Below, in pieces: positions 3,252 to 31,493 of a DNA stretch of 36,093 nt. Made by a program: the position numbers and the translations under genes. Position 1 is the first letter of the stretch. Each line of letters begins with the position of its first letter. The notes beneath the pieces were generated by a model. That model saw only the letters and a list, made by a program, of their open reading frames with translations, did no database searches and had not been told where the DNA came from. Source of the DNA: Magnetococcales bacterium (GTDB lineage Bacteria > Pseudomonadota > Magnetococcia > Magnetococcales > UBA8363); NCBI GenBank assembly GCA_015660855.1, contig JACSDG010000066.1, positions 1 through 36,093 of the forward strand, in the 5' to 3' direction.

Positions 3252-3623
3252 TCATGGCGCAACGATCCCTAGAAGCTTTTTTATAGATATAACTATACCG
3301 GCTACTGAGCCAATGGCTTTAATAGCATCAAGCAAAGGGAGCAGCATAGTCTTTGCGATAAAAAAATTAGGAGAATCTTTCTCCAATTCTGTTTTTGCTA
3401 ATTTCGCAGCCTCAATTTTTTCACTTTCAACATGAGATTTTTCTAAATTATCTATAAGGCGAGAGATTTCAGCTAGCAACTCTTGAAGTACTGTGTCTAC
3501 GCGATTATTACTATGTTCGCGATTCGAAATCTTGGCATTTTTTCCAACAGCCATGTTCCTAGCAGACAATGTCCCACCAGTCACAATTACACCTTGATTT
3601 TCCTTGTCGGTAGTGCGTGTCAT
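3252..3623 (-). CDS. Unknown small protein with coiled coil and C-terminal hydrophobic segment (cassette gene B)
   Basis: I do not recognise this 123-residue protein. Residues 9-32 form a glycine-rich stretch (GVIVTGG, then AVGKNAKI) that is repeated, with changes, at the C-terminus of the upstream cassette protein. Residues about 40-85 are highly charged and probably helical or coiled coil. Residues about 93-120 are hydrophobic (LLPLLDAIKAIGSVAGIVIS) and could insert in or lie on a membrane. The ATG at 3623 overlaps the TGA of the upstream gene by four bases, so the two are almost certainly translated as a unit. The gene is AT-rich relative to the DUF4344 and lipoprotein genes on either side, suggesting acquisition, and it ends two bases from a tandem repeat block. 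Confidence 0.75.
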   Translation of the reverse strand: MTRTTDKENQGVIVTGGTLSARNMAVGKNAKISNREHSNNRVDTVLQELLAEISRLIDNLEKSHVESEKIEAAKLAKTELEKDSPNFFIAKTMLLPLLDAIKAIGSVAGIVISIKKLLGIVAP

Positions 3624-4978
3624 GATTTGCTACCTCCTCTAACAGCGTTTATTGCATTTTTCGCGATAATAGCTCCCTTTCCGACAGCGAATGAGTCTAC
3701 TTTTACCTCTCCGCCAGATATCATTACACCTTCGTTAACAATCTTTGTTGATGTCTGAAAAAACTGATCGGTTGATATATTATTCTTCTTCAGATATTCG
3801 CGCAAAGCTCCCAAGAATTCGCTTGTTACTAATTTCAACGCTACATCCTTGTCAACTTTTTGGAAGTAGCGCTCGAAAGAAACAGAAGACCACTTTTCAC
3901 GCAACGAGTTTTCCCAGCCATAGTTATATAACCTATTTGACTCCAACTCCTTTTTCCAGCCTTTTTGACGTGCCCAATTGGCAAAAAAGCCACCTTGAAC
4001 GAAACCAAGCACATTAATTACTACAACTATCCAAGAAAATGCTCCTGCAAATATTGACTGGACTAGGCTTTCACCAAACTCCTTGCTTGTTGGCTTCAAA
4101 GGAATCTCATCAATCGCCAAATACTTTTCTTTTATAGGAGGAAGGAGAAAAAACCTTGCCTCGACAAACAAATTGTCTTTAACACTTAAAAATCTATAGT
4201 ACATACTTAGCACCATTTGACCATCCCACATAGGAATCCGCACAACTCTGTAATGACGCTCCCTTTTGTCGCCATTATTTATCTTAGTACTAATATATTG
4301 TGAATCGACACTATCAACAGGCTTAGAAAAGCGACCATTTGGAAGTAAGTGCGCAACCAAATTAACATCTTTCCCATTAATGAATAGTTCATCCGCTATT
4401 TCAATATTATCGAAGCCAATGGATAGCAACCTTTTTCTTAACTGTTCATGCAATTTCGGCGCAGATACTGTTTCAACAGGCTTGTTCTTGTCTTCTGCTT
4501 CTTTTGTATTGATGGTAAAGGACCAACTATCCAAATCAATGCCAGCACCTACAAATGGTGAATATCCACCAGAAATTATGATATTTTTATTATTTATTTT
4601 ATTTTCCTCGCCAGCATCGTCATCATTTTCACCGGACAAAATGCGCCTAGCTTTTTTCTTTGCAGATCGCTTATAAATAAATTCAGAGATTGATGTCAGC
4701 ACCAAGGCCGGTATCAATATTCCCCAGTTATCTTCTGGATCTTCAATAAAAATAAAGAAGGCAATTAAAGCTACTATAAATATAAACACAGACTTACCAG
4801 AATGGCTGCCTTTTGATTCTTCTAGTTCTTGATTTATTCTATTCAAATCAACACTAAACTCTGGAGCTGATGATTTATACGGGTGACCCAACCTCTCTTT
4901 TAAGTCCTCTTTAAAGTCATCTGGATACAAATGCGCTGCACACATCAAGAGCTTAGTAGTTCTAGTCGTAATGGACAC
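3620..4978 (-). CDS. Unknown membrane protein with GGYSPFVGAG motif (cassette gene A)
   Basis: This 452-residue protein has no family I can name. Visible parts are a charged N-terminus, two close membrane segments (about residues 62-79 and 85-102), a soluble region starting with ISGGYSPFVGAG (135-146) and SWSF, a third hydrophobic segment (about 305-328), and a C-terminal glycine-rich motif (416-438, GVMISGG and AVGKGAII) shared with the next gene. I recall similar PFVG-SG/WSF stretches in uncharacterised actinobacterial membrane proteins, but that is from memory. The start is a GTG at 4978 with AAGGAG six bases before it. Base composition is AT-rich. The gene pair is bracketed by copies of a short repeat, which suggests a mobile or exchangeable unit; a defence or effector role is possible but unproven. 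Confidence 0.8.
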   Translation of the reverse strand: MSITTRTTKLLMCAAHLYPDDFKEDLKERLGHPYKSSAPEFSVDLNRINQELEESKGSHSGKSVFIFIVALIAFFIFIEDPEDNWGILIPALVLTSISEFIYKRSAKKKARRILSGENDDDAGEENKINNKNIIISGGYSPFVGAGIDLDSWSFTINTKEAEDKNKPVETVSAPKLHEQLRKRLLSIGFDNIEIADELFINGKDVNLVAHLLPNGRFSKPVDSVDSQYISTKINNGDKRERHYRVVRIPMWDGQMVLSMYYRFLSVKDNLFVEARFFLLPPIKEKYLAIDEIPLKPTSKEFGESLVQSIFAGAFSWIVVVINVLGFVQGGFFANWARQKGWKKELESNRLYNYGWENSLREKWSSVSFERYFQKVDKDVALKLVTSEFLGALREYLKKNNISTDQFFQTSTKIVNEGVMISGGEVKVDSFAVGKGAIIAKNAINAVRGGSKS

Positions 4979-5092: not shown

Positions 5093-6216
5093 TCAGTCAA
5101 GATTTTGGGAACGGTGCTGATCCAGAATCTTCTTGGGGTCGGAAAGAGACCCGCCGCCGTCTCCAACCAAATTGAGAGGAGGAGCAACCGCAGCAACAGG
5201 TGGTTTATCTTGAGGTTTGGGAACCTGGATGACCTTCAACTGTATGTAGGCGGTATCCTTCAAGGACTTCAGGTCGGCTTCGGTAATCTTTTCCACGCTT
5301 TTGTAGACACATTCCTGATTTTTCAGATAGGTGTCACGGTTTGAATAACCGAAGGAGGCCAGAGGATTGGTACCTTCTTTCAGACATTCCGAACCTGATT
5401 TGAGAGCAGCCGATGACTTGAAATAGTCATACAGAACGTACTCACTTTCTTCAGGTTTTGTTCCGTCAGGAACGCCATTGGCCAAACCATCCCTGACGAG
5501 AGGATCCTTAGGAAGAACGATGATCTTACCTGTCAACTCGGTGCTGGCGAAGCTTTCCAGCAGGATACGTTCGACGAGGAGGGCATTGGGATCCTCAACC
5601 TGGGGTTTCAGGTAACCCATGAGGGCTGTTCCAATGGAAGCACCCACCACGCCGCCAACGGCATCGGTAGCGGTTTTGAGGATTCCGACAATTCCAGGTG
5701 TTTTGTCGTAGATGCCGGCAATGGTACGCTTAAATTGTCGTGGTGATCCAGGGGTACGAGTCGGTTGGATTCGCTGTTGAATTTGACCTGGGAAGCTTTG
5801 TAATACAATTTAGTCTTTCTGCGCAGAGGATCGTTGTCGCCCAGGGCGTCGACGCGAGTCACAAGCCACAACTCCTTGCCACGAAGATGATCGGCGGGTT
5901 TGACTTCCCTGAGGAGCCGTGAAGTGCCTCCCCTGATTTCATTCCAATCTCTTTCTTCCGGATCGGGTTGTTGCCAATCGTCACCTGCGTGAATCCAGCC
6001 CGGATTGATATTTTCCAGCCAAATGGAAAATTCCATATCTTTGTTGATGAAGATGGGATTGCCTCCGTAGAGTCCGATATCCGAGGCTACGGGGGCATAA
6101 TTTTTATCGGTATCGGCTTTAAGCAACAGTGCCTCGCTGGAGTGCTGTCGAGCACAACCAGCACCCAGGGCGGCGATCAGAGAAAGTAGGATGGTAAATT
6201 TGGTTCTTGTTTTCAT
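5093..6216 (-). pseudogene. Lipoprotein-like gene interrupted by a frameshift
   Basis: The first part starts at ATG 6216, preceded by GAGGGGA, and encodes a signal peptide followed by LGAGC, a plausible though not ideal lipobox. The second part ends at 5093 and reads as a soluble domain with a proline-rich tail (VPKPQDKPPVAAVAPP). Neither half makes sense alone. After about 5740 the first frame runs on into low-quality sequence to 5608, while the protein-like reading (RTIAGIYDKTPGIVGILKTA) continues without a stop in the frame of the second part, upstream of its GTG at 5650. A single-base change between about 5735 and 5765 would join them into one protein of roughly 370 residues. The family is not recognised. 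The shift may be real decay, programmed, or a sequencing error. Confidence 0.7.
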
Positions 6217-6600
6217 AAGCAATCCCCTCAAAGAAAGATGAAAATCAAATTGCGAAATCTAGGGACACCACGCCCATTTCCTTTATGAATCTTGGGACAG
6301 TATATTCATATCCTAACCCCATCTCCACAGTCGGCCCTACATTCAACTCCATCTTGCCAACCCATTTTCCCATCGAACCAAACCTGCCTTAGCAAACACT
6401 ATTAAACATTGGAATTAAACCATTTTAAGTAAGTCCGACTTGTAGAACTCACCGGGTTCCAGCCTAAAGAATTCGGAAAATATTAGCAGAGAAAGAGAAA
6501 AAATCAAGATCAAAATTCGTAGGGTTCGATACAGAACCAGTATCATATATAGGCAGTCTGCACTATATATTTGGAATCTTTGAGTTTTTCAAACGACAAC
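6217..6600. other. AT-rich intergenic stretch with decayed TGTCCC repeat sites
   Basis: No convincing gene is seen. Reverse-complement remnants of two short repeat types occur: GGGACACCACGCCC at about 6262, and GGGACAGTATATTCATATCC at about 6293, which resembles the GGATATACTGTCCC type at 3094-3155. The remainder is AT-rich without clear structure. It lies upstream of the lipoprotein start, so that gene's promoter should be here, but no promoter stands out. Confidence 0.5.
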
Positions 6601-6620
6601 GACCACCCCGAAAGGTGGCC
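6601..6620 (-). terminator. Hairpin downstream of tRNA remnant, terminator-like
   Basis: Read on the minus strand, GGCCACC and GGTGGTC can pair (seven pairs, one G-U) around a six-base loop. It lies about 30 bases past the CCA end of the tRNA-like fragment, where a tRNA terminator would be expected. The T-run after it is weak, so termination strength is doubtful. Confidence 0.35.
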
Positions 6621-6651
6621 GTGACGTGGAAAAAAAACTGGCGAAGAAAAA

Positions 6652-6679
6652 TGGTGGACCCCCCAGGATTCGAACCTGA
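6652..6679 (-). pseudogene. tRNA 3'-end remnant (T arm, acceptor strand and CCA)
   Basis: The minus strand reads CAGGTTCGAATCCTG, a normal T arm with the GTTCGAATC loop, followed by GGGGTCC, an A discriminator and CCA. That is the last third of a tRNA gene. No D arm, anticodon arm or 5' acceptor strand is found upstream; instead the sequence passes directly into a long hairpin of the TGTCCCC repeat family. The U at the position equivalent to 70 and the A discriminator would fit tRNA-Ala, but identity cannot be settled from this fragment. It could be an attachment-site duplicate or the scar of a disrupted tRNA gene. Confidence 0.6.
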
Positions 6680-6743
6680 ATTCTGGGGGCACCCGACTAA
6701 ATTGCTAGAATTTCAAAACAATTTGGTCGGGTGTCCCCAGAAT
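6680..6743. repeat. Long imperfect inverted repeat (TGTCCCC family, 25-base arms)
   Basis: Left arm 6680-6704 and right arm 6719-6743 are reverse complements with two mismatches, around a 14-base loop. The right arm contains CAATTTGGTCGGGTGTCCCC, one base different from the 39-base tandem units at 3002-3079, so this is the palindromic form of that repeat. It directly abuts the tRNA remnant. Confidence 0.85.
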
Positions 6744-6792
6744 GGCCCCAAACGGGGAATTCCGGAATTCGAATTCAGAGCATCATGTTCCT

Positions 6793-7047
6793 TCACGACA
6801 ACACCCACACCCCGTTTTGTTTTATCTCGTCGTACATTGCGTCTGGAGCGAGGTCCAGTTCCCCTGGCCAAGAAACAAACCCATCGACCACACTCAATTG
6901 GCTGAACACCGCTGGCTCCTGCAACTTTTCAAAGACACCACGCAAATGTGATGGCAGCATCCGAACCCTTCCAGTCAGACCATCGGCGAATGTCACCATA
7001 AATTCCAGATGGTCAACCACCCTGGCTTCTACAACATCCCAATACAT
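6793..7047 (-). CDS. DUF2442 family protein
   Basis: The 85-residue protein begins MYWDVVEARVVDHLEF and continues with FADGLTGRVRM, then VFEKLQEPAVFSQ, VDGFVSWPGELDLAPDAMY. The last stretch matches the G-x-V-x-W-P-x-x-x-D-L-x-P-D-x-L/M-Y signature I know for DUF2442. The frame is open upstream to 7065, but a GGAGGAGG site five bases before the ATG at 7047 makes that the better start. It follows a DUF4160 gene by 14 bases; these two small families are very often neighbours and are regarded as toxin-antitoxin-like, though activity is not established. Minus-strand reading continues from the signalling operon upstream. Confidence 0.85.
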   Translation of the reverse strand: MYWDVVEARVVDHLEFMVTFADGLTGRVRMLPSHLRGVFEKLQEPAVFSQLSVVDGFVSWPGELDLAPDAMYDEIKQNGVWVLS

Positions 7048-9036: not shown

Positions 9037-12000
9037 CGCATGTCTCCATCCAAAGAAATATCCCCCACCTGGGTAATCCGCAACAAAGGAACCAAAGCCC
9101 CCTGGAAATCGAACCGCTCCAAATGCCCGACCACCTCCTGCATGACCCGCTCGTGGGGAGATCCCCCAAGAGTGGCCGCCAGCTTTCGCGCTTGATCCTC
9201 TGCCTGGAAATCGGCACTTTTAATCTTTTCCTTGAGTTCGATCATTTCTTTGGCAACATTTTGCCAATTTTTTTCCCCCTCGGTTTGTGGCGCAGCGAGG
9301 AGAGAATCCTTGATCACCAGGGGGCGGGTGGCATCGAGAACCCGGTTGAGGGCGTTTAAAAACGGCTGAAAATGTTCGGAAATTTTTGTCAGAGGTTCTT
9401 TTCCCCCAAGATCGGCCTCCAACTGTTTGGCCGCTTCCCAAAGAGAGGATGCACCAATATTTCCCGCCACCCCCTTGATGGTATGAACGCGGGCCGCCAT
9501 CTGAGCAGGATCGGCCCCGGTCACCATCATCCGGCGAAATTCGGTGGGAGCGTCGGCAAAATCGCGGGCAAAAACCTTGAGCAGATCATTAAACAGGATT
9601 CGATTCCCCCCCAGGCGTTTCAGCCCTTTTTCAACGTCTATACCGTGGATTTCTTGAAGTGGAACACCCTCTGGGGGGTCCCCAGCAGCAATGACCGAAG
9701 ACACCCCAGGATCGGGACTGGGGGGCTGAGATGGAATCCGGTGTCCCAGATAGCGATGCAAACAGGCCATCAAGGCCTCGGTATCCACGGGCTTGGTCAC
9801 ATGATCGTTCATGCCGGCGTCCAAACATTTTTCCCGACTCCCGGCCATGGCGTGGGCGGTCATGGCGATCACAGGCAGTTCCTTGAAGCGGGGATCGCTG
9901 CGCAATTGACGCGTCGCCTCATAACCATCCATGATTGGCATCTGCACATCCATCAACACGGCTGCGAAAGTTTTTTTATCCAAAATGGCCAGGCCCTCCT
10001 GACCATGATTGGCGAGGGTGACGCGAAAACCGGCATTTTCCAAAATTTCCCGCGCCACCTGTTGGTTGATGGTGTTGTCTTCGCAAACAAGGATTTCCAA
10101 GCCATGAAAATTGCATGACCCCATCTCCAGGGGAGCCAACGGCCGGGGACGATCGGGAGAGACCGCACCGAACAGGCCGGTGATGGTGTCGAACAATAAG
10201 GACTGACCCGTCGGTTTGATGAGGAAGGCGTCCACCCCGGCGTTTTGAGCCTGTCGCCACAATTCTTCGCGGCCAAAGGCGGTCAGGAGGATGATGCGGG
10301 GACGATCCTGTGAGCTGTCGTCTCCCGTCGGGCTGAGTCCGGGATCGCTACGGATGGCGCGGGTCGTTTGAATGCCATCCAACCCAGGCATTTTCCAATC
10401 CAGGAGAACCAAACGATAAGGCTGACCAGAAGCCACGGCCTGGGACATTTTATCCAACCCTTCCCGTCCTGAGGCTGCGGTATCGGTTGCAAACGAGAAA
10501 AAATTCAACATTTCGGTCAAAATTTCACGCGAGGTCGCGTTGTCATCGACGACCAGAACGCGCAAACCCTTGAGATAATCAGCAGGAAGGAACGTTTTTT
10601 CACCCTGGAGATCCTGGCGCAGCAACACCGCCTCGAACATAAAACGGCTGCCCGCCCCCGGAGAGCTGTGCACCCGGATTTCTCCCCCCATGAGGGCAAC
10701 GAGACGTTTGCAGATGGCAAGCCCCAAACCGGTCCCACCATATTGGCGCGTCGTGGATTCATCGGCCTGGGAAAACGATTGGAACAGGCGTGGAAGTTGG
10801 TCATCTGCAATACCGATGCCGGTGTCACGAACGGTGAAGGCGATACGAACCTGTTTGTCATGAATATCGACCGGCTCGGCCTTGACTTCAATTTCACCTT
10901 TGGCGGTAAACTTGACGGCGTTGCCCGCCAGATTCAACAAAATTTGTCCCAGACGCAGGGGGTCGCCCACCAAGCTGGTGGGAAGCCTGGAATCGAGGGA
11001 CATAATCAATTCCACATCAGGTTTTTCCACCAGGCGGCTTTCCAGCATGTCGCGCAAATTATTGAGGACATCGTACAAGTTGAAGGGGGTGGCTTCGAGT
11101 TCCAATCGTCCCGCCTCAATTTTTGAAAAATCGAGGATATCGTTGATGATCGCAAGCAGGGAATGGGATGCGGTGCGAATTTTAGTCAGGTAATCTTCCA
11201 TACGCGCCCCAGGTCGGGTTTTGATAGCCAGTTCGGTCAGGCCGACGATGGCATTCATGGGGGTACGGATTTCGTGACTCATGTTGGCCAGGAAGGAACT
11301 TTTAGCCTCATTGGCTTTTTCAGCGGCATTTTTGGCGGTATTGAGTTCCTGGGTACGGGCACGAACCTGTTCTTCCAGGACATTGAGAGAAGATTCATAG
11401 TCTCTGCGGGATTTTTCCCGTTCGGCAACGGTAGCCGCCAACATCAATCCCACCACGGTCATCGCGCTCATGAAGGCATACAGGTTGAGAATGGCGGTAA
11501 CGGCATCTGTGTGAGCGAAAGGTCCCGACCCTTCAAGGGTGTAGGCCAGGGCGATGGCGGTAAACAAAAAGGCAATGGTGATGGCCCCCTGTAGTTTAAA
11601 ATGGCCTCCTGCCCAGATGACCAGGGGAAAACCCATGTAGACCAGGGGCAACGAAGCTTCCAGACTGCCTGGAGTTCCAAACAAAAACCGACCGATCATC
11701 ACAGTCAGGATCAACAGGACCACCCCTTCAGCCATTCTGGCCGGTTTCAGAGGATCGTTGCGCCAAAGGGAAAACGTCAGCACCAAAGGAGCGACCATGA
11801 GAACCCCCATGGCCGTGCCAACCCAATGGAAAAACCAGACGATGACCATTTCTGACAGGTAGGCATCCTGAGAATAAATGCCCCCCCCCGCACCCAAGGC
11901 ACCAAAAACAGAGCTGAAACCCACGGCAAACACGGTAAACTGGATGACTCCAGTGATTTCACCCATGGAATTTTGGAAATGTGCCCGTCGCAACAAGGCC

Positions 12001-14360: not shown

Positions 14361-14444
14361 TTTTTTCCGCTTGCGAAGTTTCACACAAGCGGTGGCAAAT
14401 CTCATGGTGATGGCGAGATGAGGAAGGATCAGGGAGCATGGTCA

Positions 14445-15572
14445 ATGAAGATATCGAGAGTAAAATTAGAAAATTTTAAGCGTTTTAAAAAAATAGAGTT
14501 TTTTGTAAAAAACGAACTTACGCAAGACATCTCGGATCAATTTCTCATTCTCGGTGATAATGGTACGGGAAAAACCACTGTACTACAAGCCATCGCCTTG
14601 ACACTCTCCAGAATCAGCGCGAAAACCGCTAGCATCAGCGATTTTGACTGGCAAGGATGGATTCCAGGTCGCTACAACTATAAAGAATGGGGATCCCCCA
14701 TCGTTGAATTGGATGTTCATTTCAGCATTGACGAAATCGAGGCTACCCAAGAAGCTGCCGACCTTTGGAACAATAACCATAATAATCCAAGAAAAATACC
14801 TTTTATCAAACCGGGCGATGCAAAAGATGTCACGGTTCGGTTGGAAGGAGAACATTACTTTATTGTTGGTGGTAATAGAGCGAATATTTTTCAATTCCGA
14901 GGCAGAACATACGCATCCCATCTCGTAAAGAATAATATCAACAAAGCAAGAGATTTATTTTCAAGACTGCCCGGTGTTTTCTGGTTTGATCAGTACCGAA
15001 ACATGACATCACCCCAGTCCAATATAGATAACAAAAACCACTCCAAGCCTGGGGATGATAACGCTCTACCCCAGTACCACAACAACTACCAGCACCCCAT
15101 TGGCATTTCGCGATTAAGAAAATACCTTAACGAATGGAACCTGCATCCGCATGCCAATGATAGACATAACTGGCTGCGGCAACTTGAAGACAGCTACAAA
15201 AAAGTTTTTCCGGATCGTTCCTTCTCCATTCCAGAACTGATGTACAAAGATGAGATCCAAACGGCAGAAAATTCTTTTTTCTGCCTCTTCGATGGCAATC
15301 GCACCTATGATATTGAAGAAATGTCTGCGGGAGAACAGTCTGTTTTTCCGATTCTGTATGAATTTGTCCAGAAGCAAATCCGAAACTCCGTGGTTCTCGT
15401 CGATGAAATAGACCTCAACCTTCACCCCCCTTTGGCACAAGCACTTCTGGCCGCACTGCCAACCATCGGTCCCAACTGCCAGTTTCTGTTTACCACACAC
15501 TCCGAAGCCGTCTCTTCCATAGCAAGTTCTGAGGAAACCTACCGCTTGCCAGGGGGGCAGTTATGCCTTTAA
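14445..15572 (+). CDS. AAA family ATPase (AAA15/OLD-like), probable ATPase of a two-gene defence system
   Basis: The protein of about 375 residues starts MKISRVKLENFKRFKKIEF, typical of SMC/RecF/OLD-type ATPases. It has a Walker A GDNGTGKTT (residues 37-45), an ABC-type signature MSAGEQSVFP (about 291-300), a Walker B VVLVDEIDLNLHPP (about 315-328) and a final FLFTTHSEAV H-loop region. The ATG at 14445 is chosen over 14418 because AGGGAG lies eight bases before it and it begins the conserved first strand. Its last ten bases overlap the next gene, which looks like a TOPRIM nuclease. That ATPase/TOPRIM pairing in separate genes is the layout of PARIS (AriA/AriB); the OLD family has both parts fused. 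The gene is AT-rich beside cobT, suggesting horizontal gain. Confidence 0.88.
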   Translation: MKISRVKLENFKRFKKIEFFVKNELTQDISDQFLILGDNGTGKTTVLQAIALTLSRISAKTASISDFDWQGWIPGRYNYKEWGSPIVELDVHFSIDEIEATQEAADLWNNNHNNPRKIPFIKPGDAKDVTVRLEGEHYFIVGGNRANIFQFRGRTYASHLVKNNINKARDLFSRLPGVFWFDQYRNMTSPQSNIDNKNHSKPGDDNALPQYHNNYQHPIGISRLRKYLNEWNLHPHANDRHNWLRQLEDSYKKVFPDRSFSIPELMYKDEIQTAENSFFCLFDGNRTYDIEEMSAGEQSVFPILYEFVQKQIRNSVVLVDEIDLNLHPPLAQALLAALPTIGPNCQFLFTTHSEAVSSIASSEETYRLPGGQLCL

Positions 15573-16402
15573 CCACCCTTTTCTGCGAGGGCGGTCCCAG
15601 CAGTCCAGACGCAAGAGTTTTGAGCAAGTTACTTAGTGGTCTGTGCAAAATTGATCCCGTGGGGAGCAAGCACGGCATGGGTCAGAAGATCTTGGCCAAA
15701 CGTGAGACTCCTCAGCACAAAAATACCGTCGCAGGCATTCTGGACGGCGATTTTCTCAAAGAATGGAAACCTCCAGAGGGGAAACCGCAGGTTTGGCAAA
15801 TATCTGAAAATCACCGTATTTTTACTTTAGGGTGGCGATGGGAACGAATTGAGATCGAAAATTACCTGGTAGATCCAATTGTTATAGAAAAAACAATTGG
15901 CAAGGATAGAATCGATCTTATACAATATAAACAAGCCTTGGAACAGGCACGAAATGACATTGCCGCTTATCAGGCGGCTCGAACCGCGTTGAGTGCCAAC
16001 CGCAGGCGATTAAAAATTCTGAAATCTTGCTTTGGTTCCGAAAGGGGGAAAGAAAAACATCACTTTCCCAATGATTTGAGCACTCCCTCATGCGAAGAGG
16101 GAATCAAAAATACTGTCGCCAGCCATAGGGAAGAACAATTTATCAACGAAAAAGATGTGATCGAATCTTTCGGCCATTATCGGAAGGAATGTCTTCCTGA
16201 TGGGATACGATATCAGCATTACCTACACACATTCTCAGGAAAAGATTTATTTTGGGCTATGGACGGATGGCTCAGAAAAAACAGATTCCAAGGTGCCTCA
16301 GAGTTCCGTGAAAAAATTTTGATCGGCATACGTAATACGACCGATGATATCGCCACATGGATACAGGAGTGGGGTGAATTTAAAAAGATGACTCAAGTCT
16401 GA
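15563..16402 (+). CDS. TOPRIM/DUF4435-like putative nuclease, partner of the AAA ATPase
   Basis: This 279-residue protein opens with TTLFCEGGPSSPDARVL, where E9 sits as the first TOPRIM acidic residue after a hydrophobic strand. AGILDGDF follows (D61 and D63, the DxD of TOPRIM), then IEIENYLVDP (residues 96-105), a stretch typical of DUF4435. In PARIS the matching subunit AriB is released from the ATPase on sensing a phage protein and cuts host tRNA; OLD and Gabija nucleases use the same fold. The C-terminal half is charged and not recognisable. It overlaps the ATPase gene by ten bases, so they are coupled. Assignment rests on motif spacing and context, not on close similarity. Confidence 0.7.
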   Translation: MPLTTLFCEGGPSSPDARVLSKLLSGLCKIDPVGSKHGMGQKILAKRETPQHKNTVAGILDGDFLKEWKPPEGKPQVWQISENHRIFTLGWRWERIEIENYLVDPIVIEKTIGKDRIDLIQYKQALEQARNDIAAYQAARTALSANRRRLKILKSCFGSERGKEKHHFPNDLSTPSCEEGIKNTVASHREEQFINEKDVIESFGHYRKECLPDGIRYQHYLHTFSGKDLFWAMDGWLRKNRFQGASEFREKILIGIRNTTDDIATWIQEWGEFKKMTQV

Positions 16403-16514
16403 GCATCAAAACGGGGGCCATGGTCGTTGTTCCTGCATCGGAAAAACAAAAAGCCAAAACAGCGTTTCAAAACCGACTATTCCCCCAACAACCGATAAAC
16501 TTTTTTCTGCCGGC

Positions 16515-23093: not shown

Positions 23094-24521
23094 TCACGCA
23101 CTTTTTATTTCAAAGGTCTCCGATTTTAGATCTCCAACGGCAGCGCGCAACTCCGGATAGACCACTTTTTCATTTTCTTGTTCATACTGATACAAATCTT
23201 CATTAAACTCCTTGATGGAAAAATGCGGCTTTCTATCCAACAATGAGTAGTACACATTCATGAAATCCCGGTCATCTGCCAGAAAACAAGAATGATAGGC
23301 ACCGAACGGAGTCTTCTTCAGGGCATTATCCCGTATTGTTTTCAGCGGATATTCCATAACATTGCCCAGATAGATGTGCATGTTGGCGCAGTTGAGCACG
23401 TCACCATAGGGCGTCATGTTGATCATTTCCTTGGTACCAGGACAGCCGAACTGTTTACCATAGTTATAGTTCAGATGGCGCTGGACATAATTGTAAGGCC
23501 TGATCAACTCGTGATAGTCCCGAATCCCCTGCTCATCCAAAAGGACATCGCGCCCTTTAAGGTTGCCAACGCCCTTGGCAAACAACGTATTGATCAGCAA
23601 TTTTTCCCGCTCTGCCAGATCCAGCAACGCCCGATAATGCTCGGTGTATATGTTCTCTCTGTGAACAACGGTATTGATGATCACCTTGATGCCATATTTA
23701 CGACAGAGACGAATCCCCTCCATGACACGATCAAAACTGCCATACCGCAGACGAAAAAGATCATGCATCTCCCGATAACCGGAGTCCAGACTGAAGTTGA
23801 CAGTATCCACACCGAGTTCAGCAGCCCGTTTGGCTCTTTCCTCGTTGAAGTGCCAGCCATTGGTCGAGATGACAAGATGATTGACCTTGCCTTGGCAAGC
23901 CTCCAAGATTTCAGCCCAGTGTTGATTGACGAAAGGCTCCCCACCCTCCAAACCGAACGTGGTGGCACCCAACGCCATGGCCTCCTTGGTGACCCTTGCA
24001 TAATCCTCCGGTACCATCTCCCGACGCACATCACTCTCATCCAGACGGATGCAGAGACAATGGTGACAGCGAAAATTGCAACGGTAGGTTCCGGCGTATT
24101 CAATACCCCGAAGGATATACTTTTTTATTTTAAAAAAGTTGTAAAATTTACCCAATGCAACGTTACGTATCAAACGCATCACGTAGAACCGTTTGCCCCA
24201 ATGGATGCCGTATTTAAAACGTATTTTCCATAGGGTGATAAATTTTTTGAAGGGTTCCTCACTTTTGGTATGGATGATCTTGCGCGCCTTGCTCTGGGCA
24301 TCGGCATCAGCGAGCATTTTGTAAACTTTCTTTTGCTCTTCGGGATTTTTAAAGACGCGTTCGACATCGCCACGCATGGCCTCGATTACGCTGGATGTAA
24401 CCGCAGCGGAGACCGAAGGAGCCAGTGGGTTTTTATCTGCAAGATCCGCGTCAGGAAGAGGCATCGACTGCGGGTTAAGCCTATCACCGGAAACCTTGCC
24501 GGCCGCCGTTGCAGTAGCCAT
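23094..24521 (-). CDS. Radical SAM protein with SPASM-like C-terminal region
   Basis: From ATG 24521 the protein has about 475 residues. After an N-terminal region of about 140 residues rich in charged helices, YRCNFRCHHC supplies the CxxxCxxC cluster ligands (about C148, C152, C155). The (beta/alpha) barrel shows LEGGEPFVN and LVISTNGWHFN. The C-terminal part has CPGTKEMINMTPYGDVLNCANMHIYLGNV, like the auxiliary-cluster domain of SPASM proteins, where GDVLNC is typical. Reaction and substrate are unknown. The ATG at 24536 is possible, but AGGGA eight bases before 24521 supports the later start. It lies 19 bases after another SPASM-type gene and is the last gene of the reverse-strand cluster. 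Confidence 0.87.
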   Translation of the reverse strand: MATATAAGKVSGDRLNPQSMPLPDADLADKNPLAPSVSAAVTSSVIEAMRGDVERVFKNPEEQKKVYKMLADADAQSKARKIIHTKSEEPFKKFITLWKIRFKYGIHWGKRFYVMRLIRNVALGKFYNFFKIKKYILRGIEYAGTYRCNFRCHHCLCIRLDESDVRREMVPEDYARVTKEAMALGATTFGLEGGEPFVNQHWAEILEACQGKVNHLVISTNGWHFNEERAKRAAELGVDTVNFSLDSGYREMHDLFRLRYGSFDRVMEGIRLCRKYGIKVIINTVVHRENIYTEHYRALLDLAEREKLLINTLFAKGVGNLKGRDVLLDEQGIRDYHELIRPYNYVQRHLNYNYGKQFGCPGTKEMINMTPYGDVLNCANMHIYLGNVMEYPLKTIRDNALKKTPFGAYHSCFLADDRDFMNVYYSLLDRKPHFSIKEFNEDLYQYEQENEKVVYPELRAAVGDLKSETFEIKSA

Positions 24522-24540
24522 GATGTAGTCCCTCATTCAA

Positions 24541-25617
24541 TTATCCAACAGTTTTTGACGTAAAACGGCCTTTGCGCAATTTGTTTGCCAGGGCCAGAGC
24601 CAGTCTCTCAAACCTGTAACCTACCATATTGGTGATCGCGTCGGCAAGCGAAAGTCTGATACCGGACGGAATACCCATGATCGGCGGAGTTCCCAGGACG
24701 ATACAGTTTTCACATAAACCGGAGTAACTCAAAAAAGTTCCATCCAGCATGGATCGTCGTAGTTCCATCATGGGCCTGCCGTTCCAAATTTCTTTGAAGC
24801 TGCTGTCCCGCAGATTGCCCAACGCCAACTCATGGTTGGAATCGTAAATACAGGGGAGAACCGTGCCGTTCCATGAAATCACTCCCGTGCTCCAAAGACG
24901 CGAACAGGGTGGATAATAAACAGGGTTGGGACGGAACGAAAACGCGGTGGAATTTTTAAACGAACTCCCCCAGGTGGAAACTTCCCGCACTCGAACTTCA
25001 TCGATCAAATCTTTAAATCGCGCCAAAAACTCCACCTGTTCTTCGGGAGTGCATTCTTCCAATCCCAACATCAGGATTGAAAGCACACAATAGGGTAACT
25101 TTTTCCCTTTTTTCTTTTTTAGCTCAAGAAAATAGAGAATATTGCCCAAAGTTTTTTCAAACTGCGCGCCAACCCGAGCCTTTTCATATTGCCCTTTGTT
25201 AAAACCATCAAAAGCGAAAGAAATGGAGGTCACCCCAGATTCCAACAACATTTCCGCTTTCTTAGGGGTCAACATGGTGGCATTGGTGTTGAGTATCGGT
25301 TTGATCCCCTGGTCTGCCGCATAGCGTGACATTGCAAAAAATTGCGGGTGATACAGAGATTCCCCCGCTACCGCCAACGTGACAGCGGAAGCATAGCCTT
25401 TGATTTCGTCAATTATCTTTTTATATAAATCAAAATCCATGAATCCCTTGTCAACTCTGAGCATGTCCATTCCTGTGGGACACATGACACATTTTAAATT
25501 ACAATTATTGGTGGGTTCCAGCCAAAAATAGGTGGGAAGGTTGGTCAACCGGAACGCCTTTCCATGCAGGTTGCCCAATGCGCGAAGATTATTCTGGAGG
25601 ACCGATAGTTTGTTCAT
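24541..25617 (-). CDS. Radical SAM/SPASM domain protein
   Basis: The protein has about 358 residues. LEPTNNCNLKCVMCP carries the CxxxCxxC motif (C39, C43, C46), followed by VTLAVAGESLYHP, LNTNATML and SISFAFDGF on the barrel. The C-terminal half has the SPASM pattern: CSRLWSTGVISWNGTVLPCIYD, LGNLRDSSFKEIWNG, and a last CENCIVL. It should bind one SAM-cleaving and one or two auxiliary iron-sulfur clusters. Homologues often modify peptides or lipids; no precursor peptide is evident nearby. The ATG at 25617 with GGAG before it is preferred over the GTG at 25623. It sits between a B12-type radical SAM gene and a second SPASM-type gene, all on one strand. Confidence 0.92.
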   Translation of the reverse strand: MNKLSVLQNNLRALGNLHGKAFRLTNLPTYFWLEPTNNCNLKCVMCPTGMDMLRVDKGFMDFDLYKKIIDEIKGYASAVTLAVAGESLYHPQFFAMSRYAADQGIKPILNTNATMLTPKKAEMLLESGVTSISFAFDGFNKGQYEKARVGAQFEKTLGNILYFLELKKKKGKKLPYCVLSILMLGLEECTPEEQVEFLARFKDLIDEVRVREVSTWGSSFKNSTAFSFRPNPVYYPPCSRLWSTGVISWNGTVLPCIYDSNHELALGNLRDSSFKEIWNGRPMMELRRSMLDGTFLSYSGLCENCIVLGTPPIMGIPSGIRLSLADAITNMVGYRFERLALALANKLRKGRFTSKTVG

Positions 25618-25639
25618 ATCCACTCCGATAACAATCGGA

Positions 25640-25804
25640 CATCATGTCCTGCGGGCAAAAAAACAAAATCAAAACCCTGGGGCTGCGCCCCTAGACCCCC
25701 CTTAGGGGGCAGTAAAATCAAAATCAAAGTCAAAAGAAAAACCTTGGAGGCTCCGCCTCCAAACCTCCGCCGGGGGGGATGATCCCCCCCGGACCCCCAC
25801 AATA
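25640..25804 (-). repeat. Composite GC-rich hairpin repeat, near-complete copy
   Basis: It contains GTCCTGCGGGC, the CTGGGGCTGCGCCCCTAG and CCCCCCTTAGGGGG hairpins, AAAATCAAAATCAAAGTC linkers, CCTTGGAGGCTCCGCCTCCAA, and GCCGGGGGGGATGATCCCCC ending at GGACCCCCACAATAG. It fills the gap between two radical SAM genes and supplies the last codons and the TGA of the B12-type one. Confidence 0.93.
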
Positions 25805-27259
25805 GAAAGAAGCCTTTTCTACTTCCATTTTCTCGATCTGTTTCATCTTTTTTCTGCGTCCGATAAGAATGCGAACCCCCAGTCGTACCGTTTTTTTCAA
25901 TTGCAGCCAAGAGCGCATCTGTTTGATTTGCCTAATGATGAAATTGAAGCTCAGATAATACCGAAGCACGGTCCGGTTGTAGTAGTGAAATAGCTGTTTG
26001 CGCGTTAAACCCTTGGGTACGTAGGGGATGCTGTGATAATCGAAACGAGACCAATCCTCAACCTTAAAACCTTCACTCATAGCCTTCCGGTAAAAAGTCG
26101 TCCCTGGAAAAGGGGTTGCCAAAGAAAAGGCCACGGAATATTTGCTCAACGTTTTGGCGAAAGAAAGCGTCCTCTTTAACGATTCTTCTGTTTCTCCAGG
26201 CATGCCCAGAACAAAACCGCAGTAAACTTTTATGCCCACATCATCAAGCATATCCAGTGCCGCTTGAATCATGGCAACGGTGGTCCCCTTGCACATGGAC
26301 AAAAGCATTTCGTCGTCCCCAGACTCAACACCTATAAAAACATTGGTCAGGCCGCTCCGCTTCATGATGACCAGAGTTTCCCGGTCCATGGCGTCGGCAC
26401 GCAGGTTGCACCCCCAGATTAAATCCGGTTTGTTATATGCGATAATTTTACTGGACACATCCCTTGCCCATTGATTGTCAACGTTAAAAGTGGCGTCATT
26501 GATGGCCAACTCGCGCACACCGTGTTTTTCATAAAGAATCTTGATTTCATCGAGGATGCTATCCGGCGAGCGGGTCCGAATTTTTTCGCCGAGGACGACC
26601 CGCGAAGCACAGAAGGTACACTTTCCCATGCAGCCCCGGTTGAACATAATGTTGGCAAAATTTTTCTTGTCTGTCGAAACCGCCCAGTACCTGTCCATGG
26701 GCAGGGAATCCCAATCGGCAAAGGGCATGGCGTCCAAATCCTGGATCATGGGGCTGTGGCCACCATAAAATAAATCACCATTTTCCTTGCGAAAGGCGAT
26801 ACCCTTGATACCATCTAGCGGATGCTGGTTTTTAATCCGCTCGGCAATCTGATGGAGAACATATTCCCCTTCGCCCAAAACGCAGATATCAACGCAGTTG
26901 GCGTGCTGAGTCAAAAGAGATCGGTACTCTTTGGAGGAGGGATGCGGACCCCCAAGTACCGTTTTTATGTTCGAATTGGCCGCTTTGAGTTGCCCTAGAA
27001 AACTGATGATCTGCGGAAGATGGCATGTGTAGACCGTCAAACCCAAAAGGGTGGGATTTATCTTTAAAGCATATCGCAGAATTTCCTCGCGTTTCATTCC
27101 TTCGGCGTGAGCATCGCACAGAATGGTCTTCCATCCTTTTGACTTTAAAAAACTGGAAATAACCGCCAGTCCGTAAGGCTGGGCCAAGCTGTCGCAGTTG
27201 TCCGGGTCATCCAGATCATGCGGCAGGTTCAGTAGCAGAATGCTCGGATCAAAGTTCAT
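25730..27259 (-). CDS. B12-binding-type radical SAM protein, C-terminus reading into a repeat
   Basis: The 509-residue frame starts with a cobalamin-binding-like Rossmann domain (residues about 1-145: ILLLNLPHD, YGLAVISSFLKSKGW, GLTVYTCHL, VLGGPHPS, CVLGEGEYV). A radical SAM core follows with NRGCMGKCTFCASR (CxxxCxxC near residue 206-213), AINDATFNVD and GVESGDDEML. Such proteins often use methylcobalamin for methyl transfer to unreactive carbons, but the N-terminal domain lacks a clear DxHxxG and may not bind B12. The last about 25 residues (CGGPGGIIPPGGGLEAEPPR) are encoded by the composite repeat, which provides the stop. The start overlaps the stop of the flippase-like gene by four bases (ATGA). 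Confidence 0.88.
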   Translation of the reverse strand: MNFDPSILLLNLPHDLDDPDNCDSLAQPYGLAVISSFLKSKGWKTILCDAHAEGMKREEILRYALKINPTLLGLTVYTCHLPQIISFLGQLKAANSNIKTVLGGPHPSSKEYRSLLTQHANCVDICVLGEGEYVLHQIAERIKNQHPLDGIKGIAFRKENGDLFYGGHSPMIQDLDAMPFADWDSLPMDRYWAVSTDKKNFANIMFNRGCMGKCTFCASRVVLGEKIRTRSPDSILDEIKILYEKHGVRELAINDATFNVDNQWARDVSSKIIAYNKPDLIWGCNLRADAMDRETLVIMKRSGLTNVFIGVESGDDEMLLSMCKGTTVAMIQAALDMLDDVGIKVYCGFVLGMPGETEESLKRTLSFAKTLSKYSVAFSLATPFPGTTFYRKAMSEGFKVEDWSRFDYHSIPYVPKGLTRKQLFHYYNRTVLRYYLSFNFIIRQIKQMRSWLQLKKTVRLGVRILIGRRKKMKQIEKMEVEKASFYCGGPGGIIPPGGGLEAEPPRFFF

Positions 27260-28258
27260 GGCGTCTGGCCATCTCTGACGGTTCCATAAGCAACTTGGGC
27301 TCGATAGTACAGGTAACTGGAAAAGGTTACGAAAGAAAGTGCTCCCAGAGAAAGAATCCTTTCCAAAATTAAAAAATTACCAATATCATTCTTATCAACT
27401 CCAAACGAAAATAAAAAAAAGAACCAGCCCGCATCAGAAGCCCCAATACCGCCAAAAGTGACACCTAAGAGCAAAATTATCTGGATCATGGGCGTTCCGA
27501 AAAAAATATGCCAATAGGAAAAATCTATGCCTATGGCGACCATCACGATATAAATCCTGGCTGATATGATTGAATATTTGATTATGGAATTAAAGTATAG
27601 CCACAAACATGTTTTATTTGGGGGAGGAGGCAGGTTAAACAAGGCCTGTGCAGACGCAAATCTTTCCCGCAAAACAGGAAATATGGAAAGAAATCTCGCC
27701 AACAGAACAAGAACGCCATTGATCCATTGGAATATACTTCGTTTTGATCGCAGTGTAAGCATGACCACAGCGAGAACGATAAATAAATACAGTATCCTCG
27801 TCATGGCGACGCTCGTAAGTTTAAAGAAAAATAAAAATGATGGGCCAATAATGGTTATCAGTATGATAAGATCGAAAACCTGCTCTTGATAGACCGATTG
27901 CAAACTGGTGGCGGTCGGTACGTTGAACTACCTGTGGAATGACACTGTTGGACAATAAACCGATGGCACAATAATAAAAATAATACCCTGCCGCAGGATA
28001 AATACAGATATTAAGACTTCTAAGAATGATCTGCCATTTGATACTTGTCAAGCCGACGATTCCCACTGTCGTTATCACCATGAAAAATATATAGATCGGT
28101 TGGGTTTGGATCATTGCCTGCCATACGGAATCGATGGTAATGCCGGTGCTGTAGAGAACGGAAACGAACAACACAATCCCCAGAAGAGAAAGAAGGGTCT
28201 TGGTCGATGATGAACCATCGGTGGACGTGTAACAATTGTTCATAGTGCAGGACGCCAT
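27256..28258 (-). pseudogene. Flippase-like (lysylphosphatidylglycerol synthase TM-type) membrane protein, frameshifted
   Basis: Two overlapping reading frames make one likely protein. The first (28258 down to about 27925) has membrane helices and reaches YCAIGLLSNSVIPQVV, the position where this family normally continues with a glycine-rich, charged loop. The second (from about 27925 to 27256) continues with helices including VYQEQVFDLIILI, FGGIGASDAGWFFFLF and a final helix, which matches the second half of UPF0104/AglD-type proteins; the family's FGGIG-x-x-E/D step is visible. A frame change near 27905-27935 separates them. These proteins are linked to moving or attaching lipid-linked groups. 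It may be a broken gene or a sequencing error. It overlaps the B12-type radical SAM start by four bases. Confidence 0.65.
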
Positions 28259-28310
28259 TATTAAATCAAACGGATGAATGTCGGTCAGGCTTTGATTCTT
28301 GTTTCTGCCG

Positions 28311-28410
28311 CTGGTGTAACCATTCAGTCCCCCCTTTTTTTTAAGGTTGAAATTGTTGTGGGGGTTAAAGAGGGGATCATCCCCCCCTTAACCCCCACAA
28401 TAATTTAAAA
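28311..28410 (+). repeat. Composite repeat derivative with a long hairpin
   Basis: It keeps the outer GTAACCATTCAGTCCCCCC box, AAGGTTGAAATTGTTG and a symmetric block in which GTGGGGGTTAAAGAGGGG pairs with CCCCCCCTTAACCCCCAC across ATCAT. The inner AAAATC linkers and the GCGCCCC hairpins are absent. It lies between the flippase-like gene and a methyltransferase gene on the reverse strand and could end transcription either way. Confidence 0.85.
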
Positions 28411-28458
28411 CTGCATATCCCAAGATGGTTGCGGTTAAACACCATGGACAAATAAGGG

Positions 28459-29415
28459 TCAAGACCCAAATTTACCAATGTACCACAGATCGAAGGCCGA
28501 TAATTCCTCCGTTGAAAAATTCTGAAATTGCCTGTCAATATGGATTTTTTTATTTTTTATCAGATCCATGGCCCTTTCGTCGAAAGTTTCATTGAAGGCA
28601 AGGGTCTTCAATCCTTTCGACTCAAATAATCGCTTATATTCTATAGTCCTAAGTCGATTGTGAAAATTGAATTTGTTGCCAGAAATCCGCAGCCACTCCA
28701 ATTCACAAAATTGGAGAAAGTTGATCGTACTGATGGAGGAATCCCCGCACGGTTCGCTTGGGTGGTTGGTATAGTGATCCGATACGTTGACATAATGAAT
28801 GAAAATACCATCTTTTGTCAAGACCCTTCTTGCCTCTAAACACATTGAAGCAATCACGTCCTCTGGAACATGTTCCAACACACTGGTAGAGTAATGAATA
28901 TCTATAGAGTCATCTTCCATGGCCAGTTGTGTGGCATCACATGGCGCAATATATTGAATTCCTGTTATTCGGAATATTTCACTTAAACTTCTTTCACATT
29001 CGGTAATAGACACGATGCGTTTTTTCAGATCCAAATCAGACGCACGGGCACCAAACGCTTTTTGGACAAATTCTTCATTTTTCAAACGATCAATGGCTGC
29101 AAGTGCAACTTCTTCTCGAAGAAAACGGTTCAAATCCGATGTGATAATTTTGTTTGCACCCAAAAGCCATATGCCAATTGGCATACTGATGGACCGACCT
29201 GTCCCTAACTCAAAAAATGTTTTTCCTGAAAAGTCAGGGTGATACTTTTCTATATACTCTACAAACTGAAGGCTCCGCTGATAATCGGTCACAGGATTCA
29301 TGTAAGGAACGTAACCACCTCCATACTTCATAACAAGATGGTAAACAAAATCAGACAGCCCCATGGGAAGCGAGGCGACCACATTTTGCAAAAAAGCTTT
29401 ATGTTTCCAATACAT
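28459..29415 (-). CDS. SAM-dependent methyltransferase (class I)
   Basis: The 318-residue protein has motif I FFELGTGRSIS at about residues 67-77, the acidic end of strand 2 in IITSDLNRFL, and a later motif DDSIDIHYSTSVLEHVPED, followed by EARRVLTKDGIFIHYVNVSDH, all typical of class I methyltransferases. The N-terminal about 60 residues and the C-terminal about 80 residues are specific to this protein and give no substrate hint. An AAGGT-containing stretch precedes the ATG. It is one of three different methyltransferases in a row on this strand, AT-rich compared with the forward genes near 17 kb. Confidence 0.87.
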   Translation of the reverse strand: MYWKHKAFLQNVVASLPMGLSDFVYHLVMKYGGGYVPYMNPVTDYQRSLQFVEYIEKYHPDFSGKTFFELGTGRSISMPIGIWLLGANKIITSDLNRFLREEVALAAIDRLKNEEFVQKAFGARASDLDLKKRIVSITECERSLSEIFRITGIQYIAPCDATQLAMEDDSIDIHYSTSVLEHVPEDVIASMCLEARRVLTKDGIFIHYVNVSDHYTNHPSEPCGDSSISTINFLQFCELEWLRISGNKFNFHNRLRTIEYKRLFESKGLKTLAFNETFDERAMDLIKNKKIHIDRQFQNFSTEELSAFDLWYIGKFGS

Positions 29416-29467
29416 TTTTTTCTACCTTGCTCCCACCAATTCACGTGACTGCGAATGCGGCAACGGA

Positions 29468-30268
29468 TTATGATTCAGAAATCCTTTTTTTCGCAAAGCC
29501 GTAAAACGCAGACATTAAACGATAAGCTATAAAATACATGGACTTTTTTATCATCCCCAATTCTTCGGGAATGCCATCCTCCTTGTAGATGGGAACGCTT
29601 GCACTGGTTTTTATGTCGAACCCGTTCTCCTTCAGGAGCGCATGGACATCGTGGGGCCGAAAATGATGCGGATGGTTTTTATCGAACAGCTTGATAAGGG
29701 GTATGATCGGCCCAGCGAAACCTGAAACGGTATGTACCGAAAACAGCAGGACTCCTCCATCCTTGAGTACGCGGCGAATCTCTCCCAAAAATACGTGACA
29801 ATCTTCGACATGGTCGATGGTGTTTGTGGTTACCACCAGATCACACGATTGGTCGGGAATCGGAATGTTTTCTCCCACGGCTTGAAGCCGGACGGCATGT
29901 TGCGGGATATGGTTTGAAATTGTGAACTGTTGATAAAAATCCATCAGTGGATCCATAACAACCAGCTCATCGGGCAGTGCGTGCGGGTCCATACGGGCAA
30001 TGGCCGAAAAAAAACCGAAAGGCCCAGAACCAATCTCTAGCGTTGCCTTGTCCTTGAAAAAACTAGGTTCAATACCCCAATGATCCAAAAATGCACGAAA
30101 ATTTTTTACGGGATCCGGATCGTAGGGCGTCTGGGTAATCTTGTGTTTCCAAAATGCCTTTTCCCTTTCCTGGAACTTGATCCAAGCCGGGTTGGACTCA
30201 GACCTTCCCTTGGAAAGATACACTTTTCCATGTTTTTCCAGTCGAACAATGCCTTGTATCATGGACAT
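29468..30268 (-). CDS. SAM-dependent methyltransferase (class I, Methyltransf_11-like)
   Basis: The 266-residue protein shows motif I TLEIGSGPFGFFS (about residues 75-87), LVVMDPLMDFY at the ribose-binding acidic position, then IPIPDQSCDLVVTTNTIDHVED and EIRRVLKDGGVLLFSVHT, the standard order for Methyltransf_11 enzymes. A PHHFRPHDVHALLKENGF segment near the C-terminus is common in methyltransferases of surface-polysaccharide clusters. The ATG at 30268 is used; a second ATG two codons on is equally possible. It lies 52 bases before the next methyltransferase gene on the same strand and is probably cotranscribed with it. Confidence 0.88.
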   Translation of the reverse strand: MSMIQGIVRLEKHGKVYLSKGRSESNPAWIKFQEREKAFWKHKITQTPYDPDPVKNFRAFLDHWGIEPSFFKDKATLEIGSGPFGFFSAIARMDPHALPDELVVMDPLMDFYQQFTISNHIPQHAVRLQAVGENIPIPDQSCDLVVTTNTIDHVEDCHVFLGEIRRVLKDGGVLLFSVHTVSGFAGPIIPLIKLFDKNHPHHFRPHDVHALLKENGFDIKTSASVPIYKEDGIPEELGMIKKSMYFIAYRLMSAFYGFAKKRISES

Positions 30269-30471
30269 ATCATTTTTCTCTGACTTGTTCTATCACGTAC
30301 AGGCCTCAATCCTCGTTTCGGCCACGAATTGCTCATGAAAATCGAAAAACTGTAAAAAAAATAAGTCGTCTGGGAAATCTTTTCCCAAGGGTTCTCATTT
30401 TAAACTAAAAGCTTCCATACCTCTGTGTCGTGGCTAAAACGAAGATCAAGATACCATGGCGGCATCATCAT

Positions 30472-31218
30472 TCAATACATATACAGCATTCCGAACATAC
30501 ATAACGGGCGAAACATATGTAACTGACCGATCAGCCTGGATTCTATGAGCATCAAAGCCTTGAACAAGCGCGACAGATAGAAATATTTGAGAAGATAAAA
30601 AATGGGAAGAAACACATAAAAACCCGCAATCCGCTCTATCCTAAAATTTTTATCTTCAATGTTGCTCAGATCCCTGAAGGTCACATAGGAATGCCCCATA
30701 AACCGTTCCACTTTCAAAATATTTCGAAAAAAAAGAATGTACGGACTCGATCCCAAAACCTCAAGCAGAATCATTTTGCCTCCTGGTTTGAGAACGCTGC
30801 GAATTTCCTGGACAACCTTTTCAATATCAACATGCATGCACACATGTTGTATATAAACAAAATCAAATGCGTTATCTATGAAACCAAGGTGGTGCAAATC
30901 CATCCAGCACGGATGGTAGTTCGGCGAACGCCGCAAGACGGCTTCGGGAAAGGCGATGTTGATGACCGTAACATCGGCTCCACCCTGGATGAAACGCTCG
31001 GTCTCGGCTTTTGTTTCCGGCCCTACGATCAATATTTTTTTACCCCGAATAACTGTACCAGTTTTGGAGAAAAAGGCCAGCAGATACTCCTGACACGGTA
31101 CGCTCCACGCCGTCCGGTCATAGGTGTTGACACTCTTATCTGCCTCGCTTTTGTTATCCAGTTCAAAATATTGTTTCTTGTATTTCTCTCGAGAATACTT
31201 GCTTAGATTTGAAGTCAT
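30472..31218 (-). CDS. SAM-dependent methyltransferase (class I), divergent
   Basis: This 248-residue protein has a weaker motif I, KKILIVGPETKAET at about residues 60-73, where the usual GxGxG is reduced to GPETK. VTVINIAFPE, FIDNAFDFVYIQHVCMHVD and EIRSVLKPGGKMILLEVLGSS follow in the order of a class I fold. The C-terminal about 70 residues are hydrophobic and basic (FLPIFYLLKYFYLS) and may lie on the membrane, hinting at a lipid or lipid-linked substrate (inference). A GGAGGT site lies about 12 bases before the ATG. The altered motif I leaves some doubt about activity. Confidence 0.75.
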   Translation of the reverse strand: MTSNLSKYSREKYKKQYFELDNKSEADKSVNTYDRTAWSVPCQEYLLAFFSKTGTVIRGKKILIVGPETKAETERFIQGGADVTVINIAFPEAVLRRSPNYHPCWMDLHHLGFIDNAFDFVYIQHVCMHVDIEKVVQEIRSVLKPGGKMILLEVLGSSPYILFFRNILKVERFMGHSYVTFRDLSNIEDKNFRIERIAGFYVFLPIFYLLKYFYLSRLFKALMLIESRLIGQLHMFRPLCMFGMLYMY

Positions 31219-31261
31219 AATGAAAATAACACCTCCATCCTTTTGTCAAACGCAGAACGGC

Positions 31262-31478: not shown

Positions 31479-31493
31479 AATCGCCTGCCTTTC

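Follow-up and report, generated by a model that had tools for sequence, protein, structure and literature searches.

In the PARIS system, a hexamer of AriA was reported to hold AriB, which is released by a phage protein such as Ocr and then cleaves tRNA-Lys (PMC12409363, PMC9122126, PMC11455837). The published detection rule for PARIS sets minimum scores of 32 bits (AAA_15) or 27 bits (AAA_21) for the ATPase and of 27 bits against DUF4435 (PF14491) for an adjacent gene (PMC9122126). Previous studies also reported OLD class 1, Gabija, AbiL, and MADS as systems in which an OLD/ABC ATPase is associated with a TOPRIM nuclease (PMC10568477, PMC12409363). In our study, a pair of genes, here called A and B, was analyzed in a window of 36,093 nucleotides (contig JACSDG010000066.1) from the 4.5 Mb assembly of a Magnetococcales bacterium (G000). 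By the published rule the pair is not a member of PARIS. Gene A scored 62.6 bits against AAA_15 (PF13175) and 73.3 bits against AAA_21 (PF13304), both over the Pfam cut-off and over the thresholds of the rule, whereas gene B gave no DUF4435 match.

Gene A was located on the forward strand at 14445..15572 (ATG at 14445, stop codon at 15570-15572) and encoded a 375-aa ABC/OLD-type ATPase. Gene B followed on the same strand at 15563..16402 (ATG at 15563, stop codon at 16400-16402) and encoded a predicted AriB/DUF4435-like TOPRIM nuclease of 279 aa. The start of B and the stop of A were found to share 10 bp, ATGCCTTTAA (15563..15572, +), and the ten-base overlap noted in the first-pass annotation was confirmed. 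The overlap was exactly 10 bp in each of the 27 other loci in which A was complete and also in L016 (G044), where its length was read from the coordinates, making 28 whole-A loci besides the window. A Shine-Dalgarno-like G run for B (GGGGGG, 15552..15557, +) was read from the sequence within the last codons of A. A G-rich run was present at this position in the 31 junctions compared, where it was located in the GG codons of A, and the C-terminus of A was GGxxCL* throughout. Relatives of A directly preceded B in the related loci, and the pairwise distances in A and in B were correlated (r = 0.90). A and B are a fixed pair whose translation is probably coupled.

We infer that the pair serves in defence. 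A and B probably constitute an anti-phage module of two genes that moves horizontally and combines an ABC ATPase with a TOPRIM nuclease (PARIS-like, "class 4 OLD"). A, as an OLD/PtuA-type ABC ATPase, would most likely form oligomers, bind B, and hold it in an inactive state. B would be a TOPRIM nuclease of the two-metal, AriB/DUF4435 type; on release it would most likely act as an RNase, halting translation. By analogy with PARIS, A would sense a signal encoded or induced by the phage, whereupon B would be released or activated and the infection aborted.

The ATPase motifs of gene A were intact. The Walker A motif GDNGTGKT (residues 37-44; 14553..14576, +) contained invariant G37, D38, N39, G40, G42, K43, and T44, followed by the ABC signature MSAGEQS (293-299; 15321..15341, +) with invariant M293, S294, G296, and E297. 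The Walker B motif VVLVDEID (316-323; 15390..15413, +) contained invariant D320, D323, and the catalytic E321, and the H-loop residue H352 (15498-15500, +) was likewise invariant. These residues were compared in the 29 members of the A-family alignment, and the Walker and signature motifs already ascribed to the ATPase were thus present with an invariant core.

The best PADLOC profile for A was that of PtuA (1.8e-27), which covered residues 1-368 of 375; the AbiLi and mad3 profiles were also matched. The AriA profile PDLC04164 was absent from the best 25 PADLOC matches of the window A, and likewise from those of L048 and L054. This profile was the best one for the longer AriA-type ATPases of L061, L065, and L067 (1e-29 to 1e-34), whereas the window-type ATPases fitted best to the PtuA profile PDLC00271. 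The best solved relatives of the A-family profile (A4) were the retron I-A/PtuA ATPases, down to 3e-23, as against 1e-5 for the solved AriA and a weak 5.5e-6 for the OLD-family ATPase 6p74. The Foldseek matches listed for the predicted model of A were likewise PtuA/retron ATPases. Judged by these profiles, A is closer to the PtuA (Septu/retron) ATPases than to canonical AriA, so that the geometry of the complex and the trigger need not be PARIS-like.

The resemblance speaks for a different reading, in which the pair would be a Septu-like module whose effector has been swapped, with B in place of the HNH nuclease PtuB and with PtuA-like stoichiometry and triggers. The profile and fold of A are indeed closest to those of PtuA, as in the Septu and retron I-A effectors. 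However, A scored 82.6 bits against the NCBIfam PtuA model, far under its equivalog cut-off of 500, and the mean pLDDT of its model was 63. The partner gene differed as well, since B contained TOPRIM motifs and no HNH family match was found in it in Pfam, PADLOC, or NCBIfam, and no reverse transcriptase gene, as in retron I-A, was present beside the window pair. In addition, the ATPases of two pairs with DUF4435-like nucleases (L104 and L064, described below) behaved like the window A and also scored well on PtuA profiles. The PtuA likeness may therefore reflect a profile generic for short ABC ATPases and not Septu descent, and we consider the swapped-effector reading unlikely.

In gene B, the predicted TOPRIM glutamate E9 (15587..15589, +) was invariant in the 30 members of the B-family alignment (A3) and aligned with the glutamate of DUF4435 domains. 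In the predicted TOPRIM DxD, D61-G-D63 (15743..15751, +), D61 was invariant and D63 was conserved in 29 of the 30 members, substituted by Y in L051; the motif aligned with the DxD of relatives. The WRWERIEIENYL motif (15833..15868, +), which holds the IENYL of the DUF4435 type, contained W91, W93, E94, R95, E97, E99, N100, Y101, and L102, all invariant in the 30 members. E9, D61, D63, and IENYL, the residues picked out in the first-pass annotation, were thus all present. A further GKD motif (residues 226-228; 16238..16246, +) was found in the C-terminal part, with K227 and D228 invariant in the 30 members. It is common to the sister nucleases described below as GKD, GKE, or GK, and aligned to GK(E)IL in A8 and A10.

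Direct searches of B against Pfam, NCBIfam, and PDB sequences returned nothing. DUF4435 was not matched at E values up to 1 in Pfam by B or by any of the nine members of an early B alignment (A1), nor was a DUF4435 match found in the window's own genome. In PADLOC, the only matches of the window B at E values up to 1 were AriB (0.001) and AriAB (0.0038), and all nine members of A1 matched AriAB (best 2e-7). Profile-profile comparison of B was run with hhalign. It joined B to its DUF4435/AriB kin with probabilities of 97.1% over 251 columns (sister group A8), 96.8% (sister group A9), 97.1% (TOPRIM halves of ATPase-DUF4435 fusions), and 96.7% (mixed DUF4435 set A5); in the last of these, the E, D, D, and EN motifs aligned with the invariant E23, D73, D75, and E106. 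Controls reached at most 2.6% when the columns were shuffled (300 trials) and 0.4% when reversed. However, no significant match was obtained when B was compared only with a few two-gene AriB-type proteins (9.7%, and 0.9% in another comparison), and the link of B therefore rests on the sister families and the fused ATPase-DUF4435 proteins. A search of A9 against PDB found no AriB, and this negative is little informative, as the AriB-type L065 found none either when used as the query.

When a sister-family HMM was run against 1000 sequences, of which 998 were shuffles of B, the window B was recovered with an E value of 2.8e-12; the HMM also recovered the other B members. The aligned residues, 5-246, included the C-terminal GKD. 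The C-terminal half of B, earlier called unrecognisable, is therefore recognisable, its SGKD motif having been found once the sister families were used. The AlphaFold2 model of B built from nine sequences had a mean pLDDT of 73.1, with residues 37-51, 62-83, and 151-168 below 50. In this model, which scores poorly just after D61, the TOPRIM fold was not recovered, and no Foldseek match was found at E values up to 0.001. The sequence-profile evidence argues strongly that B joins the DUF4435/AriB-type TOPRIM nucleases.

A search with A3 revealed other ATPase-linked nucleases in the Magnetococcales. These sister pairs (L104; L064, L094, L095, L097, L103, and L105; L062, L063, L098, L099, L107, and L109) came from Magnetococcales genomes and a single further genome from the phylum. 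Like the window pair, they had the same gene order, similar sizes, and E, DxD, EN, and GK motifs. Their junctions differed from the 10-bp overlap of the window type, with a 4-bp overlap in L104 and short gaps in L062, L063, and L064. The sister nucleases matched PADLOC AriAB in 13 of 13 cases, AriB in 8 of 13 (best 1.2e-11), and Pfam DUF4435 in 7 of 13. The ATPases of the sister pairs ranged from 344 to 389 aa, and the 375 aa of A, which had been regarded as short, are therefore a usual size in the wider group. The closest sister pair (L104/L110, G033:C101) consisted of an ATPase sharing 36% identity with A and a TOPRIM-like protein of 287 aa; for B, identity with this sister was 14-24% across groups. 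The genome of this pair (G033) also carried a window-type pair, on C89.

The TOPRIM domains of OLD and Gabija have DNA as their substrate, and the weak match of A4 to 6p74 points in the same direction. The pair might accordingly be read as one in which A activates B on DNA rather than sequestering an RNase. Three observations speak against this. B resembles DUF4435/AriB proteins, whose characterised member is a tRNase (PMC12409363). The ATPase and TOPRIM of the window are on separate chains, unlike the fused chain of OLD class 1 and GajA. No helicase (GajB) gene was found beside the window pair, which is flanked by cobT and a TPR gene. We regard the DNA-cleaving mode as improbable, and release of an RNase from A is retained in the PARIS-like reading.

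The distribution of the family was patchy. Intact B was found in 9 of 48 Magnetococcia genomes, and the same nine carried A; together with the constant overlap, this exceeds a chance pairing. Scanning named genomes yielded 34 loci, of which 30 had a full-length B match. The labels were Magnetococcales, Desulfobacterota/Deltaproteobacteria, Gammaproteobacteria, Acidobacteriota, Aminicenantes, Lentisphaeria, Chloroflexi, and Cyanobacteria (MAGs or isolates), and the taxon labels of MAGs may be wrong where the contigs are short. In the tree, in which several branches are weak, the Desulfobacterota and Gammaproteobacteria members were spread over more than one position. No relatives of B were found in plasmids, phages, or IMG/VR contigs. 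A preceded full-length B wherever the upstream DNA was complete, with the exception of L035, which kept only the last codons of A. In this Aminicenantes contig B was kept (5960-6813) behind a tandem-repeat-like stretch (5401-5682), from a deletion or a chimeric assembly.

Decay of the pair was also observed. Among the 48 Magnetococcia genomes, G036 and G047 contained decayed pieces only. In the remnant of G036, deletions had brought together the opening codons of A, its last 42 codons, and the initial ~52 codons of B; that of G047 consisted of frameshifted pieces of B. Truncated copies were found in Calothrix, Rhizonema, and Dulcicalothrix, and the B of L050 (6001-6843) contained a stop codon. 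The degraded copies of filamentous cyanobacteria (L057, L058, L059, and L060, around 6001, and L050) showed internal deletions, fused ends, or a stop codon; some of these genomes held a fuller copy elsewhere. Patchy gain, loss, and decay of this kind is the pattern that would be expected of a defence module.

In the window, the pair lay in an additional segment (14361..16514) that separates cobT from the TPR gene. The two flanking genes adjoin in the same-genus genomes G043 and G044, where the gap between the matches was 74 and 56 bp, respectively, with no pair in between, as against ~2.15 kb holding A and B in the window. The GC content was 43.6% in A and 44.4% in B, compared with 62.8% in cobT and 58.2% in the downstream gene, in agreement with the AT-richness reported in the first-pass annotation. 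The pair, which it described as standing alone, is not alone in kind, as its gene order recurs in the sister pairs. These data support the view that the window pair is an AT-rich extra cassette at an otherwise closed site, which behaves as transferable. The window also contained another AT-rich ORF pair (3252-4978, minus strand; 123 and 452 aa), with 38-39% GC in surroundings of 55%. A gene run at 23094-34004 (minus strand) included radical-SAM-like and methyltransferase-like proteins, as judged by eye from the translations.

Most neighbours of the pair were ordinary genes, and most loci, the window included, were not in an evident defence island as far as the neighbours examined are concerned. 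In three loci (L048, L040, and L033) the pair was found behind a type I specificity gene. L048 (JAABRU010000014.1, 204-12818) contained a type I methyltransferase gene, a specificity gene, and a YhcG-type PDDEXK nuclease gene, followed by A and B, and the pair had 4-bp overlaps with its neighbours on either side. The gene next after B was conserved, uncharacterised, and common to the three loci, and further downstream genes were shared in pairs. Downstream of the pair, the operons of L048, L040 (2914-11535), and L033 (1-5164) encoded conserved proteins of 348-469 aa, of 388-481 aa, and, in L040 and L033 only, of 441-768 aa; L048 also encoded a 1217-aa protein with a P-loop-like motif. Among those downstream genes for which Pfam was searched, only the 768-aa protein of L040 gave matches (Mrr_N, EVE, and DUF7669). 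The conserved gene after B gave no match in a search of 398 genomes from the phylum of the window, which was run without a positive control. A BREX identity of these operons was considered and dropped, as the PglZ matches in those genomes were on contigs of other sizes. In L055 (a Desulfobacterales MAG), a second pair of an ATPase (344 aa) and an AriB-like nuclease (283 aa) was observed at 9249-11138, 2.4 kb downstream of the window-type pair.

The three operons possibly represent an undescribed modification-linked defence system. BREX and BREX-related operons were reported to have taken up OLD-ABC and TOPRIM modules as backup effectors (PMC12839542), and the type I-linked loci fit this theme. 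It is possible, as a tentative proposal, that a PtuA-type sensor ATPase has been combined with an AriB-like TOPRIM effector, with a trigger and an RNA (or DNA) target other than those of PARIS. Behind type I specificity genes, such a pair would act as a built-in suicide backup, comparable to the PrrC arrangement. A non-defence ATPase-nuclease pair, acting in RNA processing or genome maintenance, would suit most loci, which showed no evident defence genes among the neighbours examined, and has a parallel in Cran1, an archaeal OLD-family ATPase with a non-defence role (PMC12796447), but is very unlikely in view of the patchy distribution, the two decayed remnants and broken cyanobacterial copies, the extra cassette, whose site is closed in related genomes, and the placement behind type I specificity genes.

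The PARIS-like anti-phage module thus remains our preferred reading. The subfamily, about 30 loci in several phyla, escapes the DUF4435 threshold, and the PADLOC AriB/AriAB models detect it only weakly; censuses of PARIS-like systems would therefore undercount. Its compact proteins, invariant residues, and fixed overlapping start make the trigger and the target testable. It also offers a chance to see one ATPase scaffold combined with HNH or TOPRIM effectors.

Compared with AbiL and with mad3 of MADS, the pair shares the combination of an OLD/ABC ATPase with a TOPRIM nuclease, and A matches the AbiLi and mad3 profiles, whereas B gave no AbiL or mad profile match at E values up to 1 in PADLOC. 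Compared with PARIS, including fused AriAB, the pair shares the order of an ABC ATPase followed by a TOPRIM nuclease, the catalytic E and DxD with the IEN motif, and the strong match to fused ATPase-DUF4435 domains. By hhalign and motif conservation, B is homologous to the DUF4435/AriB TOPRIM proteins with their catalytic residues. The differences are that B misses DUF4435 and that A, with 375 aa against 464 aa in the solved AriA, is fitted better by PtuA profiles than by PDLC04164 and is not a canonical AriA-type ATPase. The fixed 10-bp overlap and the WxWERxEIENYL and YxAARxxL motifs peculiar to B also set the pair apart. The first description of the locus, as a PARIS/OLD-type pair divergent from known members, therefore stands for the layout, the DUF4435-like TOPRIM nuclease, and the cassette behaviour, but not for the published PARIS rule or for the ATPase, which is nearer to PtuA than to AriA. 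The pair defines a coherent and widely scattered subfamily, which is new as a subfamily and not as a principle.
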